A stretch of 64,000 bases of DNA from Sulfurimonas sp. (GTDB taxonomy: Bacteria > Campylobacterota > Campylobacteria > Campylobacterales > Sulfurimonadaceae). The DNA lies in NCBI GenBank assembly GCA_028044295.1, contig JAOFSE010000007.1, positions 1 to 64,000 on the forward strand. Direction: 5' to 3'. A program made the translations under genes and the position numbers. The notes under the pieces were generated by a model. The model made no database searches. It was not told where the DNA came from and was given only the letters and a program-made list of their open reading frames with translations. Shown piece by piece: positions 22,967 through 30,387 of this stretch (its first letter is position 1; each line of letters opens with the position of its first letter).

Positions 22967-23320
22967 ATGAAAAACCTAATTAAAAATATGAAACTAAGTC
23001 TACTTGTCATTTCTACACTAACAATGGCATCTACAGCCATAGCACAGGAAATGCCTTCACGTGGCCCAATACCATTTGGTATATTTGATGCAAATAAAGA
23101 TGGTTCTATTACAGAGTCTGAGTTCTATGATGCGAGAGCTATCAGAATGAAGCAAAAAGCAGATCAAGGGAGACCTATGAAAAATGCAGCTAATGCTCCA
23201 GATTTTTCTGTGTATGACACAAATAATGATGGTAAATTAAATAAGCTAGAACTTTTAGAAGGTCAAAATAAGCAGATGCAAAAAAACAGACAAAACAGAG
23301 GTCAAAGAAATAATAGATAA
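22967..23320 (+). CDS. Exported EF-hand calcium-binding protein
   Basis: 117 residues: a signal peptide ending near TAIAQ, then two canonical EF-hand loops, FDANKDGSITESEF (about residues 38-51) and YDTNNDGKLNKLEL (about 83-96), both with D-x-D/N-x-D-G spacing and acidic position 12. The basic tail is rich in K, Q, N and R. It is likely a periplasmic calcium sensor or buffer. AAGGAG lies upstream of the ATG. Monocistronic, with a hairpin directly after the stop. Confidence 0.85.
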   Translation: MKNLIKNMKLSLLVISTLTMASTAIAQEMPSRGPIPFGIFDANKDGSITESEFYDARAIRMKQKADQGRPMKNAANAPDFSVYDTNNDGKLNKLELLEGQNKQMQKNRQNRGQRNNR

Positions 23321-23710: not shown

Positions 23711-25066
23711 TTATAAAATTCCACTCCAAAAAAACTCTGCTATAACTACGATGAGAGCTATACCCACTAGGTTTAAAACTATCCCGTATCTTGCCATACT
23801 TTTTATGCTTACAACTCCACTACTCATAGCTATAGCATTTGGTGCGGTGGCGATAGGGAGCATAAAGGCGTAACTAGCACACACAGTAGCCACCATCATA
23901 AAAAGTGTCGTAGATATACCCGTTTGCTCACATACTGAGTACATAACAGGTAACATTATAGAGATAAGTGCTGTGTTGGATGTTATCTCTGTTGTAAAAG
24001 TTATGAGAAGTGCCACAGATAAAATAATCATCATTGGCGGTAGCTCGGTTATAACTATGAGAAACGATGCAAACTCATCAGCTAGACCAGTTGCGCCAAA
24101 GGCTTTTGCTATAGAGAATCCAGCTCCAAACAAAAACATAATTTTATATGGAACTTTTGCCTTGTCACCTTCCCAGTCAAGTATTTTAAACGGTGGTGCA
24201 AAAAGTAAAAGCCCTACTCCTAAAAGTATCCCTGCTTCACTCAAACCTAATCCTGACCAGTATGGTTTAAGTGGAGCATTTACTAGCAGTAAAAGAACTA
24301 AACCACTCAGTAAAAAGAATACTTTCTTCTGACTTTCGTCTAACGAGTGGTTGTTTCTAACTAAGTTCACTTGTATATCTTTAACACCAACACTCAAAAG
24401 TGAGGCAACAACAAAAAACATTACAAAAACTAAAGGAGCGACCATCATGACCCACTGTAAAAATGGTATGGCTTCCATCCCTTTGTCTTGCATAACACCT
24501 AAGAGTATAAGGTTTGGTGGAGTTCCTATGGGAGTGAGTATTCCACCTACAGTAGCGCCATATGCGATGGCAAGAGCAAATCTCATCTTTAGTCGTACAT
24601 CTTCACTTAAAAACAGAGCTATAGACATAAGTAAAAGCGTTGTTGTCGTGTTAGAAAGAATCGAGCTAAGAAGTCCAGCCGTAATAGTCAGAGAAAAGAT
24701 TATCCCTCTTGGAGTAGATGGAAAGATGGCGAACATCTTATCAGATATCCACGTATGAAGGTTAGTTTTTTCAACGGCTATTGCCAACATAAACCCACCT
24801 AAAAATAGGTAGATAATAGGATGAGAATAGTTTATGGATGTCTCTTTAGTAGAGAGGATAGAAAATGCTGGAAACAAAACTATAGGTAAAAGTGAAACTA
24901 CACCTAAAGGAAGTCCCTCATTTGTCCATAGAGCTACTAAAAGAGCGATTAGTCCAAGAAGTGAAGCTTGTTGCGTTGTGAAAAAATTTATAGATATGAT
25001 AAAGACTAAAGCACCTACTATAACACCTAGCCCTATCTTTAAAAACTGTTCTTTGTATTTGTTCAA
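23711..25066 (-). CDS. SLC13/DASS-family anion permease
   Basis: 451 residues with about 11-12 membrane helices. TTEITSNTALISIMLPV matches the SNT motif for Na+/substrate binding, and GTPPNLILLGV is the matching motif of the first half. Family members import dicarboxylates, sulfate or related anions with sodium. It starts at TTG 25066, 12 bp after the DUF4384 gene, so it ends that transcript. Substrate not decided by sequence; dicarboxylate is the commonest. Confidence 0.88.
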   Translation of the reverse strand: MNKYKEQFLKIGLGVIVGALVFIISINFFTTQQASLLGLIALLVALWTNEGLPLGVVSLLPIVLFPAFSILSTKETSINYSHPIIYLFLGGFMLAIAVEKTNLHTWISDKMFAIFPSTPRGIIFSLTITAGLLSSILSNTTTTLLLMSIALFLSEDVRLKMRFALAIAYGATVGGILTPIGTPPNLILLGVMQDKGMEAIPFLQWVMMVAPLVFVMFFVVASLLSVGVKDIQVNLVRNNHSLDESQKKVFFLLSGLVLLLLVNAPLKPYWSGLGLSEAGILLGVGLLLFAPPFKILDWEGDKAKVPYKIMFLFGAGFSIAKAFGATGLADEFASFLIVITELPPMMIILSVALLITFTTEITSNTALISIMLPVMYSVCEQTGISTTLFMMVATVCASYAFMLPIATAPNAIAMSSGVVSIKSMARYGIVLNLVGIALIVVIAEFFWSGIL

Positions 25067-25078
25067 ACTACTTAACCA

Positions 25079-26467
25079 TTACCTTTTCATAGTAGTAAAA
25101 CTCATAACATCTTCACTAAACTCAACTTTTTTAGACTTTTTCTTTTTAAGTCCACGAGTTTTTACTAGTGCTTTTTTTATGTCTTTTGAGACTATATAGT
25201 AACCACTCTCTTCATCATACCTTACAGATGGTAGTGTAGTTATCTTTTGGTTTGATGCTATAACTTGGATACTCTCAACTCCATAAGGTGGCTCAATCGT
25301 AAAAGCACCAAGACTCATCCATCGGTTAGTATCATCAGCATTTACAAACTGTATAAACCTACTCTCACCCATACCTTCTTGTAGTTCTAAGAGATATGAC
25401 ATTGTTCCATTCTTAGTTTGTGTGTAACCAACTATGTAGTAGTAGCCTTGTTTATTTAGTTTAATAAAAAGCTCTATCTCCTCTCCATCATTAAAGAGAA
25501 GATTTTGACTTCCTCTGTTTGAGTTTAAAGCTACATGTAGATTTGAAGAAGAAGTAATCCCAGCATTTAAAAGTGCATCAAAGTCTACGTTTTTTGGTTT
25601 TGTTTTTAGATTTTTATATGCTGACTTGTTTATGTTTATTGTTTTTGAAGTAACTACTTCATTTGTATGTGAATCTAACAGTTCATAGTTTAAAACCATC
25701 ATCTTTTTAGTAAGTGTGTATTCACCTACTAGTATATAAGAAGCATCATATATGTCTTTAGAACTTTTAACTTTAGACTTCAGGTTTTTCATAAATACAG
25801 AGCCAAACTCTGAAACAGTTGTAGAGTTTTGAAGTAATGGTGGGTAGACAAAAACATTTTCTACATGTAGAAAGCTTTTAGCTAGTACAGTTGTAGCAAA
25901 CTCTACGCTGTCTATGTCTGAGTTTAGCTTATCTAGCTCTGTTTTTACCTTTGCTTTTGTAACCTGAGGTCTGTTTAGAACCTTACCTCCAAGTATGACT
26001 AAAACACTCTCGTATCTGTCATACTCTTTTAAAAGTGAAAATATATTTGAATATGCTTTTAACTTTAAAGAATTAGATTTTGACTTTTTAATCTCACTAA
26101 GTGAAGAGTCTATCTCATCGTTTATATTTGATAGTTTAGATAGGTAGAGTGCTATCACCTTTGAAGATGTTAGAGTTACTTCTGCTTCTACTTCCGTACT
26201 CTTTTTTATGACATCAAACTCTGCACCAAGTATGGGTAAGTCTGAACTAACTTTTAGAGTTGCCTTTGCATAGCCTCCACTGTTCATACTAGTAGACTCA
26301 AAACTAGAACGTACTTCACTCTTTATGACTTGACTTAAGTCTGAGAGTGCTTCTTTTTTAGCTTCTGATTTTGTAGATGCATAGCCTACACCGCTTATGT
26401 CTGCACTAGCTACATGTGAAAATACTAATGTACATGTAACTAATAAACTTTTTAACTTTAAACTCAT
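25079..26467 (-). CDS. LPP20-like/DUF4384 exported protein of the caspase cluster
   Basis: 462 residues with a cleavable signal peptide (ending near HVASA). The N-terminal domain (about 22-115), ISGVGYASTKSEAKKEALSDL, resembles LPP20 lipoprotein repeats but without the lipid cysteine. The C-terminal part (about 305-430), FNDGEEIELFIKLNKQGYYYI to PPYGVESIQVIAS, is DUF4384. DUF4384 is often fused to, or near, bacterial caspase-like domains, and here two such genes lie directly upstream. I infer a periplasmic partner or scaffold. Two exact CTACATGTAG copies lie inside (25531, 25861). Confidence 0.82.
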   Translation of the reverse strand: MSLKLKSLLVTCTLVFSHVASADISGVGYASTKSEAKKEALSDLSQVIKSEVRSSFESTSMNSGGYAKATLKVSSDLPILGAEFDVIKKSTEVEAEVTLTSSKVIALYLSKLSNINDEIDSSLSEIKKSKSNSLKLKAYSNIFSLLKEYDRYESVLVILGGKVLNRPQVTKAKVKTELDKLNSDIDSVEFATTVLAKSFLHVENVFVYPPLLQNSTTVSEFGSVFMKNLKSKVKSSKDIYDASYILVGEYTLTKKMMVLNYELLDSHTNEVVTSKTININKSAYKNLKTKPKNVDFDALLNAGITSSSNLHVALNSNRGSQNLLFNDGEEIELFIKLNKQGYYYIVGYTQTKNGTMSYLLELQEGMGESRFIQFVNADDTNRWMSLGAFTIEPPYGVESIQVIASNQKITTLPSVRYDEESGYYIVSKDIKKALVKTRGLKKKKSKKVEFSEDVMSFTTMKR

Positions 26468-26487
26468 ATTTATCCTTTATGTATATA

Positions 26488-28074
26488 TTAATTATTTCTA
26501 ACACAACGAGTATGGTTATTATTACTTGATGGTGTAGATACTTCTTCATTCTTGGATGATACTTCCCACGGAAACTCGGTACTACCTATTATTTCTATAT
26601 TTGAAGACCAATAGCTGTCACTACCAATGTAACTAAAACCTGTTTTTTTATGAGATTTTTTAAGTTCTTTTTTAGTTGGTAATCTCCAGTCATGATGCCC
26701 ACTTAAAGTTAATGACTTACAATATATATTTGAATTCTTCCAATCACTTCTAATAGTTTTTGTATCTTTATTATCCTGCCACATTAAACCATCTAAAACT
26801 ACTGTTCCTTCAAGTTTCTTTCTTTTTGTACGTTTAACTTTTTTTTCTGGTATCTGATTTTCATCTCTCACACAACGTACATAACTAACATTTTGTTTTG
26901 GATAATAAAATGTATCAGCTAAAGAAAAATCAGCATTCCAAACTGTTTGAGAAAGGTTCTTATTTGTAGAAGAAGATAAATAACCTCCAGTTGTCACTAC
27001 ATGATTAAATTCTTTTTTTATCTTAGGAGTTTTATTTTTATCCATAATTTTTTTTAACTTTTTGATGTCTGGAAGATACCAATCAGAATACCCAGCTAAT
27101 TTTAAATTACTACAATATTTTTTTGAACCCTCATAATCTTGTACTTTTCCATATTTACTATTTGTACTAAATGCATTAACTTCTTTATTTACGTATGGCT
27201 CATCCTGCCACATCAAACCATCTAAAACTACTATATCTGACATGTCATGAGTCTCTTCTACTTTTTTAGTCTCATTCAAAATAATCTTTGTTGATTGAAT
27301 ACTTTTACTTCCATTACTAGGTAGTCTAAAAAAGAAATCACCTATGATGTCATCATGAGTCCAAGGTCTCTGTTGCTCTTGTGTTTTGTCATAAACACCT
27401 CGTTTTACCTTTTTAAACATACGACCTATTGGTATACCCTCTTCATCAATATTATTTAAAATCTGCTCAGTAAATACACCATGCTTTCCGCTGCCATCAC
27501 TTGCTACATCACCTGGACTTGTAGCATAGGCTATAAACATACCCTTAGCGTTGTCAACCTTAGCTAAACCACCACCAGATGAACGAGAAAATGGGTCATT
27601 TCTACAAGCATCAAGTAAAACTATGTTTAAACGGTTTCCTGAGTTTTTCATGGAGTCCAGTACTTTGTTTAACTCTAAAGACTCGTAAGCAATGTCTAGT
27701 TTATCTACAAGGTTAGAGTCTTTACCCATCAAGTAGTTTTTACCTTGGGACTCTACACCATGACCAGCAAAGAAAAATAGACCTACTCCTCCTTTACGAA
27801 GCTTTGAATTAAAAGAGCGAAGTTTTTTGTCCATGTCTCTAACACTAAGATTCTCTCCATAAAAAACTTCAAACCCTAAAGAACGTAGCTTTATTTTCAT
27901 AGCCTTAGCATCGTTAATAGGATTTTTAAGTTTTGTAAGTCTGTCACTGTTGTATATATTGTTACCAATTACAAGAGCAACTCTCTGCTCTGACTTCATC
28001 ATTTTTAGTGCTCGGTCTGTGTTTGCATCTAAAGATATACATAAAATCGAGAATAGTATTAAAAGTTTATTCAT
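26488..28074 (-). CDS. Exported caspase-like protease with two DUF1566 domains
   Basis: 528 residues. A signal peptide (MNKLLILFSILCISLDA) precedes a peptidase C14/p20 domain: RVALVIGNNIYNSDRLTKLK, catalytic His in FFFAGHGVE, catalytic Cys in VLLDACRNDPFSR. Two DUF1566 (Lcl-type) domains follow, each beginning LDGLMWQD and carrying a DWYLPD or DWRLPT signature; the second ends in a Cys-Val-Arg C-terminus. I chose ATG 28074 (AAGGA 6-7 nt upstream) over TTG 28077. It probably acts in the periplasm. The domain shuffle suggests a regulated protease with ligand-binding tails. Confidence 0.87.
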   Translation of the reverse strand: MNKLLILFSILCISLDANTDRALKMMKSEQRVALVIGNNIYNSDRLTKLKNPINDAKAMKIKLRSLGFEVFYGENLSVRDMDKKLRSFNSKLRKGGVGLFFFAGHGVESQGKNYLMGKDSNLVDKLDIAYESLELNKVLDSMKNSGNRLNIVLLDACRNDPFSRSSGGGLAKVDNAKGMFIAYATSPGDVASDGSGKHGVFTEQILNNIDEEGIPIGRMFKKVKRGVYDKTQEQQRPWTHDDIIGDFFFRLPSNGSKSIQSTKIILNETKKVEETHDMSDIVVLDGLMWQDEPYVNKEVNAFSTNSKYGKVQDYEGSKKYCSNLKLAGYSDWYLPDIKKLKKIMDKNKTPKIKKEFNHVVTTGGYLSSSTNKNLSQTVWNADFSLADTFYYPKQNVSYVRCVRDENQIPEKKVKRTKRKKLEGTVVLDGLMWQDNKDTKTIRSDWKNSNIYCKSLTLSGHHDWRLPTKKELKKSHKKTGFSYIGSDSYWSSNIEIIGSTEFPWEVSSKNEEVSTPSSNNNHTRCVRNN

Positions 28075-28088
28075 CAATATTCCTTATT

Positions 28089-29489
28089 TTATTCATAAAT
28101 TTGTATAGTTACTCTTACTAAAGGTTCTTTGTAATACTTACGCTTTAAGAGTTTCTCTATTGAAATAAATATCATTTGATTATCATGCATAAAAACAATA
28201 CTATCTTCCCCATATTTAGTTTCATCCCATTCGTTTTTTCCATTAGCATAAATCATATTTTTTATGGAATTAGTAAGTTCCTTATACTTTTTATTTTCCC
28301 TTGCTGGATTAGCAACTGAATAGAATATAGTTAATTCATGAAGTTTCGTTCTATCATCAAAATAATGAGCTGCTTGCTTCCTAACTATTTTACATGTAGT
28401 GTTTGTTTTAGGAGATAAATTACAATGAAACCTTTTTGCAGTATTATTAATTTCTAATAAATCTGCATAAGCTTTTAGTGCTTCATCTTTTGTACTATTA
28501 CCAAGTTTTAGATATCTTTCAACAAAACCTGCGTTCTCTTTTCTAAACTTTTTAATAACTTTAGCATTCTCTTTATCTGTATATGCTTTGGATATTAATG
28601 TATCAAACTTATTATCAATTGAGTCTATAACCTTTTGTATTTCACTCATTACTTTACTTAAAGATTTTTTCTTGACATTGATAGTCTTTCTTGTTTGTAC
28701 TTTTGACGTAGTATATGAACTTCCACCAGGAAGAGTAAAATAAAAATCTCCTCTTATTTGATTATAAACCCCAGGGCTCTGTTTCCCATCTGTTGCATCA
28801 TAAACATCTGCACGAGTGTTTTTAAAAACTTTCTCGATGGTAGCACCCTGCTCTTTCAGGTTTTTTACTAGGTACTTGGTAAAGACACCGTTTTTACCTT
28901 TTTTTCCATCACTTGCAACACTTCCAGCCTCTGTGGCATAAGCTACGAACATCCCTTTAGCATCTGAGACAGGAGCTAAACCTCCGCCACCACTTCTGCT
29001 AAATGGGTCATTTCTACAAGCATCAAGTATGACTATGTTTAGTCTGTTACTAGCCTCTTTCATCTTTTTTGTTACATAGTTTAGAGCTAGTGTTTCATAC
29101 TCTACTTCATCTTTATCATCCATAACAGAGTCAGTTCCTACTAAAAAGTTATGACCATCTACATTTACACCATGACCAGCAAAGTAGTAAAGACCAACTC
29201 CACCACTTTTTAGTTTATGAGCAAACTTTTTGAGAAGTTTTTTCATATCTCTTTTTGAAGCATTCTCTTTATAGATAACATCAAAGCCACGATTAGAAAG
29301 TACATCACGCATAGCTCTACAATCATTGATAGGGTTTTTTAGTTTTGAAAGATTTACGTAGTTGTTGTTACCGATGACCAGAGCAACTCTCTGCTCGTTC
29401 TTCATCTCTTTTAGCTTTAAGCCTCTGTCTGCTTGGAGATTATTTATACTAAAAAGTAAAATTATAGTTAAGAGTAAAATAAACTTCAT
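28089..29489 (-). CDS. Exported caspase-like protease, second paralogue
   Basis: 466 residues: a signal peptide ending near NNLQA, then a C14/p20 domain close to the downstream paralogue: RVALVIGNNNYVNLSKLKNP, His in YYFAGHGVN, Cys in VILDACRNDPFSR. The C-terminal ~200 residues (from about 265) are different: a helical region with KKFRKENAGFVERYLKLGN and an alpha/beta tail I do not recognise. Both catalytic residues are present, so activity is expected. It lies directly after gpsA and 11 bp before the first caspase gene. Confidence 0.86.
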   Translation of the reverse strand: MKFILLLTIILLFSINNLQADRGLKLKEMKNEQRVALVIGNNNYVNLSKLKNPINDCRAMRDVLSNRGFDVIYKENASKRDMKKLLKKFAHKLKSGGVGLYYFAGHGVNVDGHNFLVGTDSVMDDKDEVEYETLALNYVTKKMKEASNRLNIVILDACRNDPFSRSGGGGLAPVSDAKGMFVAYATEAGSVASDGKKGKNGVFTKYLVKNLKEQGATIEKVFKNTRADVYDATDGKQSPGVYNQIRGDFYFTLPGGSSYTTSKVQTRKTINVKKKSLSKVMSEIQKVIDSIDNKFDTLISKAYTDKENAKVIKKFRKENAGFVERYLKLGNSTKDEALKAYADLLEINNTAKRFHCNLSPKTNTTCKIVRKQAAHYFDDRTKLHELTIFYSVANPARENKKYKELTNSIKNMIYANGKNEWDETKYGEDSIVFMHDNQMIFISIEKLLKRKYYKEPLVRVTIQIYE

Positions 29490-29490
29490 A

Positions 29491-30387
29491 CTAACTCGAT
29501 AACAAGTCTCTCAAAGACTCTTTAGGGCTTTTACCCTCTAACATTTCATATACTTCTTTAGCTATTGGTAAGTACAAATCTTTTTGAGTTGAAATCTCTT
29601 GAAGTGCGTAGGTAGTACCGATACCCTCTGCTACTTCACCTAGTTCTTTGAGTATCTCATCTTGACTTCTACCCTTTGCAAGACCAAGTCCAACACGGAA
29701 GTTTCTTGACATGTTAGATGAAGCTGTAAGAAACAAGTCACCTGCTCCACTAAGACCAGAAAAACTTTCCTCTGTTGCTCCATATGCCATACCAAACCGT
29801 TGCATCTCTACTAAACCACGACTTATGAGTGCTGCTGCTGCATTTTTACCAAGACCTAAACCTTCACATATTCCAGCAGCTATGGCTATAACATTTTTGT
29901 ATGCACCAGCTACTTCTGCACCAACAACATCAGTAGATGTATATGTCTTTATAAACGATGGGAAAAGTGATGAAACCTCTTCACTTAACTCTTGAGATGT
30001 AGAGTTTACTACAAGAGCAGTTGGAAGCGACTGTTGTACCTCTGAGGCGAATGATGGACCTGAAAGAAAAGCTATGTTTGACTCTGGGATATGCTCTGCA
30101 TATATCTCATTTAAAAAACGTCCAGTTGACGCTTCTATACCCTTAGATGCTACTAAGATTTTTTGGTTTGTAAAAACAAAGTTCTCTTTTAACCAAGATG
30201 AAATTTGTTGAGCAGGAACAGTTATGATGAGATACTCACACTTTAAAATATCTTCTAAAGATACAAAGTTTTTTATATCTCTAGGAGTTCTTGATGTTAT
30301 ATATACTTCACTTTTCTCACTTAGTGCATAAGCTAATGCAGAACCCCATTTACCAGCTCCTACTACTCCAATTTTACCCACATTCAC
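29491..30387 (-). CDS. gpsA: Glycerol-3-phosphate dehydrogenase [NAD(P)+]
   Basis: 298 residues; makes sn-glycerol 3-phosphate for phospholipid synthesis. The dinucleotide loop is GVVGAGKWGSALA; catalytic Lys in GAYKNVIAIAAG; NMSRNFRVGLGLAKG near the end. The longest start is GTG 30387, overlapping the RCK gene by 14 bp. A second GTG at 30381 is better placed relative to AGGGA (6 nt) and still leaves the full Rossmann fold, so the protein may be two residues shorter. Confidence 0.95.
   Translation of the reverse strand: MNVGKIGVVGAGKWGSALAYALSEKSEVYITSRTPRDIKNFVSLEDILKCEYLIITVPAQQISSWLKENFVFTNQKILVASKGIEASTGRFLNEIYAEHIPESNIAFLSGPSFASEVQQSLPTALVVNSTSQELSEEVSSLFPSFIKTYTSTDVVGAEVAGAYKNVIAIAAGICEGLGLGKNAAAALISRGLVEMQRFGMAYGATEESFSGLSGAGDLFLTASSNMSRNFRVGLGLAKGRSQDEILKELGEVAEGIGTTYALQEISTQKDLYLPIAKEVYEMLEGKSPKESLRDLLSS

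Follow-up and report, generated by a model that had tools for sequence, protein, structure and literature searches.

To our knowledge, little has been established about what prokaryotic caspase homologs cut in nature. Here, we analyzed three adjacent genes in a 64,000-nucleotide stretch of DNA from Sulfurimonas sp. (contig JAOFSE010000007.1, positions 1 to 64,000; the window, below), which encode two caspase-like proteins, casp1 and casp2, and a protein with a DUF4384 domain, the partner protein. Orthocaspases (MEROPS C14, p20 only) are comparable to casp1 and casp2 in their p20 head, His-Cys dyad, and acidic pocket; the window set differs in that its caspases are of exported type, DUF4384 belongs to a protein of its own, whose T-R-[G/A/S] tail is invariant, and Lcl_C domains are carried by a caspase. 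Fusions of caspases to FGE, WD40, and DUF4384 accessory domains are described in passages of earlier papers (PMC3501461, PMC8283722, PMC7475262, PMC6426788). A passage of PMC3501461 puts orthocaspases in the Epsilonproteobacteria at 0.01 per 1000 proteins, whereas the genome that holds the window (1.9 Mb, 94% complete) has 12 caspase-profile matches, 11 of which are rows of the profile itself and so match by construction; the Pfam model alone finds 9.

Human MALT1, a paracaspase, is the best solved-structure sequence match for both caspase heads (E = 2.1e-16 and 1.5e-10) and shares with them the DxCR motif and Asp at three acidic pocket positions. The window caspases differ from it as bacterial proteins of exported type with a predicted activity and with no death or Ig domain among their Pfam matches. 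The partner protein is comparable to Helicobacter pylori HP1454 and Lpp20 (HP1456) and to Vibrio FlgT-like proteins in being secreted, and it differs from them by its DUF4384 domain, its T-R-[G/A/S] tail, and its caspase neighbors. Lectin-fold systems with peptidase effectors that are diversified by a diversity-generating retroelement (DGR) likewise join a peptidase to a putative lectin-like sensor, and a DGR acts on a caspase-FGE protein in a relative; the window genome differs in that no reverse transcriptase (RVT_1) match was found in it at 94% completeness, and a DGR of its own was rejected. Among open-license PMC papers, judged from listings and a few passages, none came up that deals with exported caspases whose LPP20/DUF4384 or Lcl_C partner is a separate protein, leaving aside PMC10100824, a listed paper on Leptospira that contains caspase, periplasm, and DUF1566.

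The three genes run in tandem on the minus strand from 29489 down to 25079, as the initial annotation had placed them, in the order casp1 (466 amino acids [aa]; 28089..29489), casp2 (26488..28074), and the gene of the partner protein (462 aa; 25079..26467); all coordinates within the set refer to this strand. The casp2 start is taken as the ATG at 28074, and the listed open reading frame (ORF) begins at a TTG 3 bases earlier. Both caspases match Peptidase_C14 (PF00656) at 135.2 and 133.3 bits against a cut-off of 21.4 (E = 3.8e-39 for casp1 and 1.4e-38 for casp2), with C14 (p20) domains at 28740..29390 and 27337..27984, respectively. Both retain the catalytic His (FAGHG) and Cys (DACRN), giving the His-Cys dyad of orthocaspases, and a simple pattern script (not SignalP) found a signal-peptide-like N terminus on each. 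The adjacent C14/p20 pair with intact catalytic residues and signal peptides that had been described from the sequence therefore stands. Among models of defense systems, only the single-gene "caspase" model of PADLOC matches both proteins (E = 2.5e-13 and 6.8e-8); the NCBIfam model for EACC1-associated caspases (NF047832) scores 76.4 and 57.7 bits, under its cut-off of 140.

Beyond the heads, casp2 ends in two Lcl_C (DUF1566) domains (PF07603, E = 4.4e-31; first domain, 26866..27222, E = 1.6e-17; second domain, 26497..26793, E = 3.6e-14), which the initial annotation had overlooked. The C-terminal part of casp1 (residues ~264 to 466; 28092..28700) is an AT-rich orphan: its ~200 residues have no relative other than their own copies among the loci compared (L040 onward), and against solved structures they gave one match, with an E value of about 1. 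The AlphaFold model of casp1 gave no useful information (mean pLDDT of 45, with the C-terminal part below 40). GC content at third codon positions falls from ~0.27 in the heads to ~0.17 in the tails of both caspase genes (0.269 to 0.167 in casp1), in line with a swap of tails. A recent duplication of casp1 and casp2 was rejected, since their DNA identity is 64% across 715 bases and is confined to the head; given this limitation to the head, we regard the two genes as old paralogs with different tails.

The partner protein passes the Pfam cut-offs for DUF4384 (PF14326; 28.0 bits versus 27; domain at 25247..25495) and FlgO (PF17680; 23.3 bits versus 22.6). By sequence, the LPP20 label of the initial annotation fails (PF02169; 15.0 bits, under the cut-off of 25.9), and what speaks for it is a weak HP1454/Lpp20-like fold; a ~330-aa relative in the same genome (L050) passes the LPP20 model at 34.7 bits. 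The AlphaFold model of the partner protein has a mean pLDDT of 44, with residues 21 to 180 mostly at 68 to 87 and a dip around residues 50 to 80. The best fold match of this low-confidence model is H. pylori HP1454 (E = 1.2e-5); Lpp20 stands lower in the list (E = 0.24, probability 0.97), and LpoB, CsgG, and TolB match weakly. Searched against solved structures, the protein gave one match, with an E value of about 1. Its start reads MSLKLKSLLVTCTLVFSHVASA followed by D and is of export type as judged by eye. An exported DUF4384 protein does follow the caspase pair, and the proposed location of all three proteins outside the cytoplasm agrees with the export signals found on each (by script on the caspases, by eye on the third).

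The association of caspases with DUF4384 proteins is real, recurrent, and beyond chance. The family set of 228 genomes contains 30 with a match to the DUF4384 protein of the window (a strong one, with E up to 1e-20, in 21) and 64 that encode a caspase. All 21 strong-match genomes, which are spread over five genera, encode a caspase, compared to 43/207 of the others (Fisher P = 1.7e-13, shared ancestry ignored). With weak matches included, caspases occur in 26/30 versus 38/198 genomes; five of the nine weak-match genomes have one, and G025, G429, G320, and G321 do not. The genes are often close together: a caspase lies within two intervening ORFs of 11 of the 23 window-type genes, and L052, with five ORFs between, makes 12 (one record stands behind both G018 and L040 and enters the counts once). 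Orientation varies, the two genes being convergent in L040 and L146. In a class-wide draw of 249 genomes, DUF4384 was found at an E value of up to 0.001 in 6 (3 over the Pfam cut-off), and in all 6 a DUF4384 gene abuts a caspase gene; by PF00656 alone, a caspase is present in 4/6 of these genomes versus 10/243 others. Within the window genome, a second, different caspase adjoins an LPP20-DUF4384 gene (L050), and no caspase was found in the 11 to 13 kb examined around two other DUF4384 genes (L102 and L103). Neighborhood conservation had been proposed as a check on the set, and the caspase and DUF4384 parts do co-occur in other genomes; of the two results named as refuting, a lack of co-occurrence and a cytoplasmic location, neither was observed. 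The claim that the two are fused or linked elsewhere likewise agrees with fusions described in passages of PMC8283722, PMC7475262, and PMC6426788 and with L106 and L109, where Lcl_C-caspase fusions lie beside LPP20-DUF4384-type genes; in the window, as had been stated, the parts are three distinct genes.

MALT1 cuts after Arg and prefers Gly at the next position. In an alignment to MALT1, casp1 and casp2 both have Asp at positions 365, 462, and 500 of the acidic pocket (MALT1 numbering). According to a passage of PMC5756287, an acidic pocket makes C14 members other than animal caspases dependent on Arg or Lys in front of the cut, and by their acidic S1 pocket, casp1 and casp2 are predicted to be basic-specific orthocaspases. 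A candidate site lies in the tail of the partner protein at T437-R438-G439 (codons at 25151..25159). In a tail alignment, T437 and R438 are invariant in 21/21 window-type rows, followed by G in 17, A in 3, and S in 1, and R438 is the sole invariant basic residue in the 20 full-length rows (pairwise identity, 24 to 94%). The 21 rows stem from 19 genomes or records, with two each from G375 and G398. Left out were L041, of which only the N-terminal part is present, and L163, whose E value of 2e-14 exceeds the 1e-20 limit; L157 (many stops), L058, and L162 gave no row, as no gene passed the search, and the partner fragment of L162, outside the alignment, reads T-R-G.

The pocket of the neighboring caspases varies with the type of partner. 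Caspases near window-type genes read D-H-D-C-[D/E] at the pocket and catalytic positions in 12/12 cases within 4 kb and in 13/13 with L052 included (12 loci), and their Cys motifs fall in several subtypes. In contrast, caspases beside the ~330-aa partner type have Ser or Thr, not Asp, at position 365 in 13/13 cases (11 loci). The last 70 residues of these shorter partners hold no conserved basic residue, and of the 11 loci only L166 has T-R-[G/A/S] there, very close to the C terminus. An acidic-pocket caspase with His and Cys is among the caspases examined in 18 of the 21 strong-match genomes (in G319, in a frame-broken gene). Cleavage at R438 is a sharp prediction.

The pieces of the set recombine in relatives. 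An Lcl_C-caspase fusion occurs with a separate DUF4384-type partner in L041, L106, and L109, and the three parts are separate neighbors in L162, where the caspase is frame-broken and the partner only a fragment, and in L181 (Lcl_C by eye). Other caspases carry FGE (L040 and L062), PEGA (L061 and L062), WD40 (L053), or thioredoxin (L042 and L054) domains. In the window genome, all five Lcl_C domains lie inside a caspase or in a gene adjoining one (including L044 and L049). Lcl_C shares the lectin fold. In genome G047, of another family, genes for a reverse transcriptase (RVT_1, E = 1.8e-26) and bAvd (E = 1e-16) adjoin a caspase-PEGA-FGE gene. Between a 114-base template and the 3′ end of this gene there are 20 mismatches, all 20 at template adenines (template and variable repeat at 440 to 553 and 2112 to 2225 of L062, G047 contig 145). 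Such adenine-only mismatches are the mark of a DGR. The contig end truncates the start of the target gene; the remaining piece of this start is signal-peptide-like and matches the starts of other G047 caspases. These data are good evidence that the lectin-fold end of the G047 caspase is diversified, presumably to bind changing ligands; they do not prove the same role for the Lcl_C domains of casp2.

The set lies between gpsA (29491..30387, minus strand) upstream and an SLC13/CitMHS-type transporter gene (23711..25066, minus strand) downstream, both identified by Pfam and neighborhood comparison. From gpsA through the SLC13 gene, the intergenic gaps are 1, 14, 20, and 12 bases, and because of these short gaps the three genes look like part of one transcription unit. 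In 10 of the 21 same-genus loci with a listed gpsA neighborhood (the window itself excluded), the SLC13 gene comes directly after gpsA, where the window has three genes between them; given this adjacency, the three genes appear to have been inserted as a block. A single gene lies between gpsA and SLC13 in L208, and ten of the 21 loci have other neighbors. A plasmid home for the set was considered and rejected: the DUF4384 protein has no match in PLSDB at an E value of 0.01, and casp1 matches 252 PLSDB records, none covering 80% of the query. Nearby, on the strand opposite to the block, a small EF-hand protein (22967 to 23320) has an export-type start, as judged by eye.

Our preferred reading, which we hold tentatively and rate a little below an even chance, is a proteolytic envelope module in which sensor-controlled extracytoplasmic caspases act on the DUF4384 protein, most likely by cutting it. 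The basic-specific casp1 and casp2 would be exported to the periplasm or cell surface, where their variable C-terminal parts (Lcl_C in casp2, the orphan part in casp1) would sense or target and so control the protease head. The co-exported LPP20/FlgO/DUF4384-type protein would be the partner acted upon. Most likely, a cut behind R438 of the invariant T-R-[G/A/S] tail would set free or displace its final 24 residues and so alter the state of the envelope protein. The sequence data show the gene content, the pattern-based export signals, the intact residues of catalysis and pocket, the recurring linkage and co-occurrence in genomes, and the invariant tail site, which matches the pocket type of neighboring caspases; protease activity, ligand sensing, cleavage, and the envelope effect are what we infer here. 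A more specific version, possible in our view if doubtful, is that lectin-like sensors, retroelement-diversified in one relative, switch on exported paracaspase-like heads, which would then cut a dedicated, co-encoded envelope protein between Arg and Gly of T-R-G.

Several observations weigh against the proteolytic reading. Eleven of the 23 window-type genes have no nearby caspase (for three of them, the contig is short or breaks off there), and four of these caspase-less genes share one chromosomal position near his genes. A window-type gene occupies this position in five species, directly followed by a caspase in L150 only. No locus other than the window showed the exact order caspase-caspase-window-type DUF4384; a caspase-caspase-partner order occurs twice in G371, with the shorter partner type. 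Furthermore, only Ser-365 caspases were found in G338 and G369 (85% and 57% complete; one G369 fragment left out) and only three caspase-like proteins, all Cys-less, in G303, yet the DUF4384 tails of all three genomes still keep T-R-G. The pocket contrast itself may go back to no more than one or two events in evolution, as the caspases with Ser or Thr at position 365 appear to form a single clade. R438 may also be structural, for example by pairing with the equally invariant E452. Such pairing would suit a different role for the DUF4384 protein, as a scaffold or activator like HP1454, FlgT, or Lpp20 that holds the caspases in place; T-R-G would then be structural and belong to the final portion of the fold. 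The fold matches to HP1454 and, weakly, to LpoB, CsgG, TolB, and Lpp20 point in this direction, as do the interactions of HP1454 and HP1456 with FlgP and FapH in H. pylori (passages of PMC11756786) and the linkage of shorter, tail-less partners to caspases. By itself, however, a scaffold leaves unexplained why the T-R-[G/A/S] tail goes with acidic-pocket and not with Ser/Thr-365 caspases, and we consider this role rather unlikely.

The initial annotation had suggested an envelope stress or defense module. The envelope part gains from export and from the weakly HP1454/Lpp20-like N terminus; stress and defense remain suggestions. The main hint of defense, nuclease- or ATPase-like genes between the caspase and DUF4384 genes, comes from four other loci (L041, L052, L053, and L159), and the window block has no such gene. 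Pfam confirms YhcG/DUF1016 in L053 and AAA_21 in L041 but gives no match for the HNH-like protein of L052 or for a second L041 protein, which, like the remaining ones, were named by eye. These intervening genes may mark a link to defense or merely an insertion spot. In a defense against phages or competitors, the lectin-like domain would sense a signal from a phage or from a foreign envelope; acting outside the cytoplasm, the caspase would kill the cell or block the attacker. Consistent with this, the DUF4384 protein is patchily present (30/228 genomes), a DGR diversifies the related caspase-FGE protein, and conflict systems (a passage of PMC10907252) and cyanobacterial DGR targets (one of PMC7517822) are proposed to include caspase-type peptidases that have CLec sensors. 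The EACC1-caspase model, however, stays under its cut-off, and the DUF4384 gene keeps one conserved chromosomal position in five species. In addition, the caspase defense effectors known to us are cytoplasmic. A defense role is therefore possible but weakly supported, and we judge it unlikely. Still less probable is a general function in surface-protein maturation or envelope quality control, in which exported caspases would process secreted proteins by cuts after Arg, with the DUF4384 protein as just one substrate or neighbor. The 12 caspase-profile matches in a 1.9-Mb genome, with varied extra domains, look like broad use; all 11 that were run through the script show a signal-peptide or lipobox pattern, and the twelfth (L164) looks exported by eye. 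The strict co-occurrence with one type of partner, often close by, argues instead for a dedicated pair. That the genes are hitchhiking neighbors with no common function is highly improbable: operon genes can be unrelated, as gpsA and the transporter gene are here, but co-occurrence, proximity, class-wide abutting, the pocket match, and the empty-site results together argue against chance.

Other caspase loci in relatives show further arrangements. A fusion of a caspase to a DsbC-like thioredoxin (L042, 4568 to 6223; also L054, 7299 to 8696, and L055, 8904 to 10295) lies beside a stand-alone paralog in conserved synteny; in L042, the two share 57% protein identity, and in the G017 and G001 copies of this locus Tyr replaces both catalytic residues. 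In G371, one locus (L165) holds four exported-type caspase genes, small exported Lcl_C-like proteins (by eye), and an LPP20-DUF4384-type gene; in another (L166), the repeated caspase-caspase-partner unit adjoins a transposase-like gene. The G303 proteins (L183, 2065 to 3843; L184, 1185 to 2813 and 2814 to 4484) are of exported type with FGE-like ends, as judged by eye, and have kept the His and lost the Cys.

For the proteolytic envelope module, genomics names a candidate substrate, a single bond, and a control class in the tail-less partners of Ser/Thr-365 caspases. If the reading is true, a caspase-substrate pair would operate outside the cytoplasm, and bacterial caspase signaling would extend to a location where its purpose is not obviously programmed cell death.

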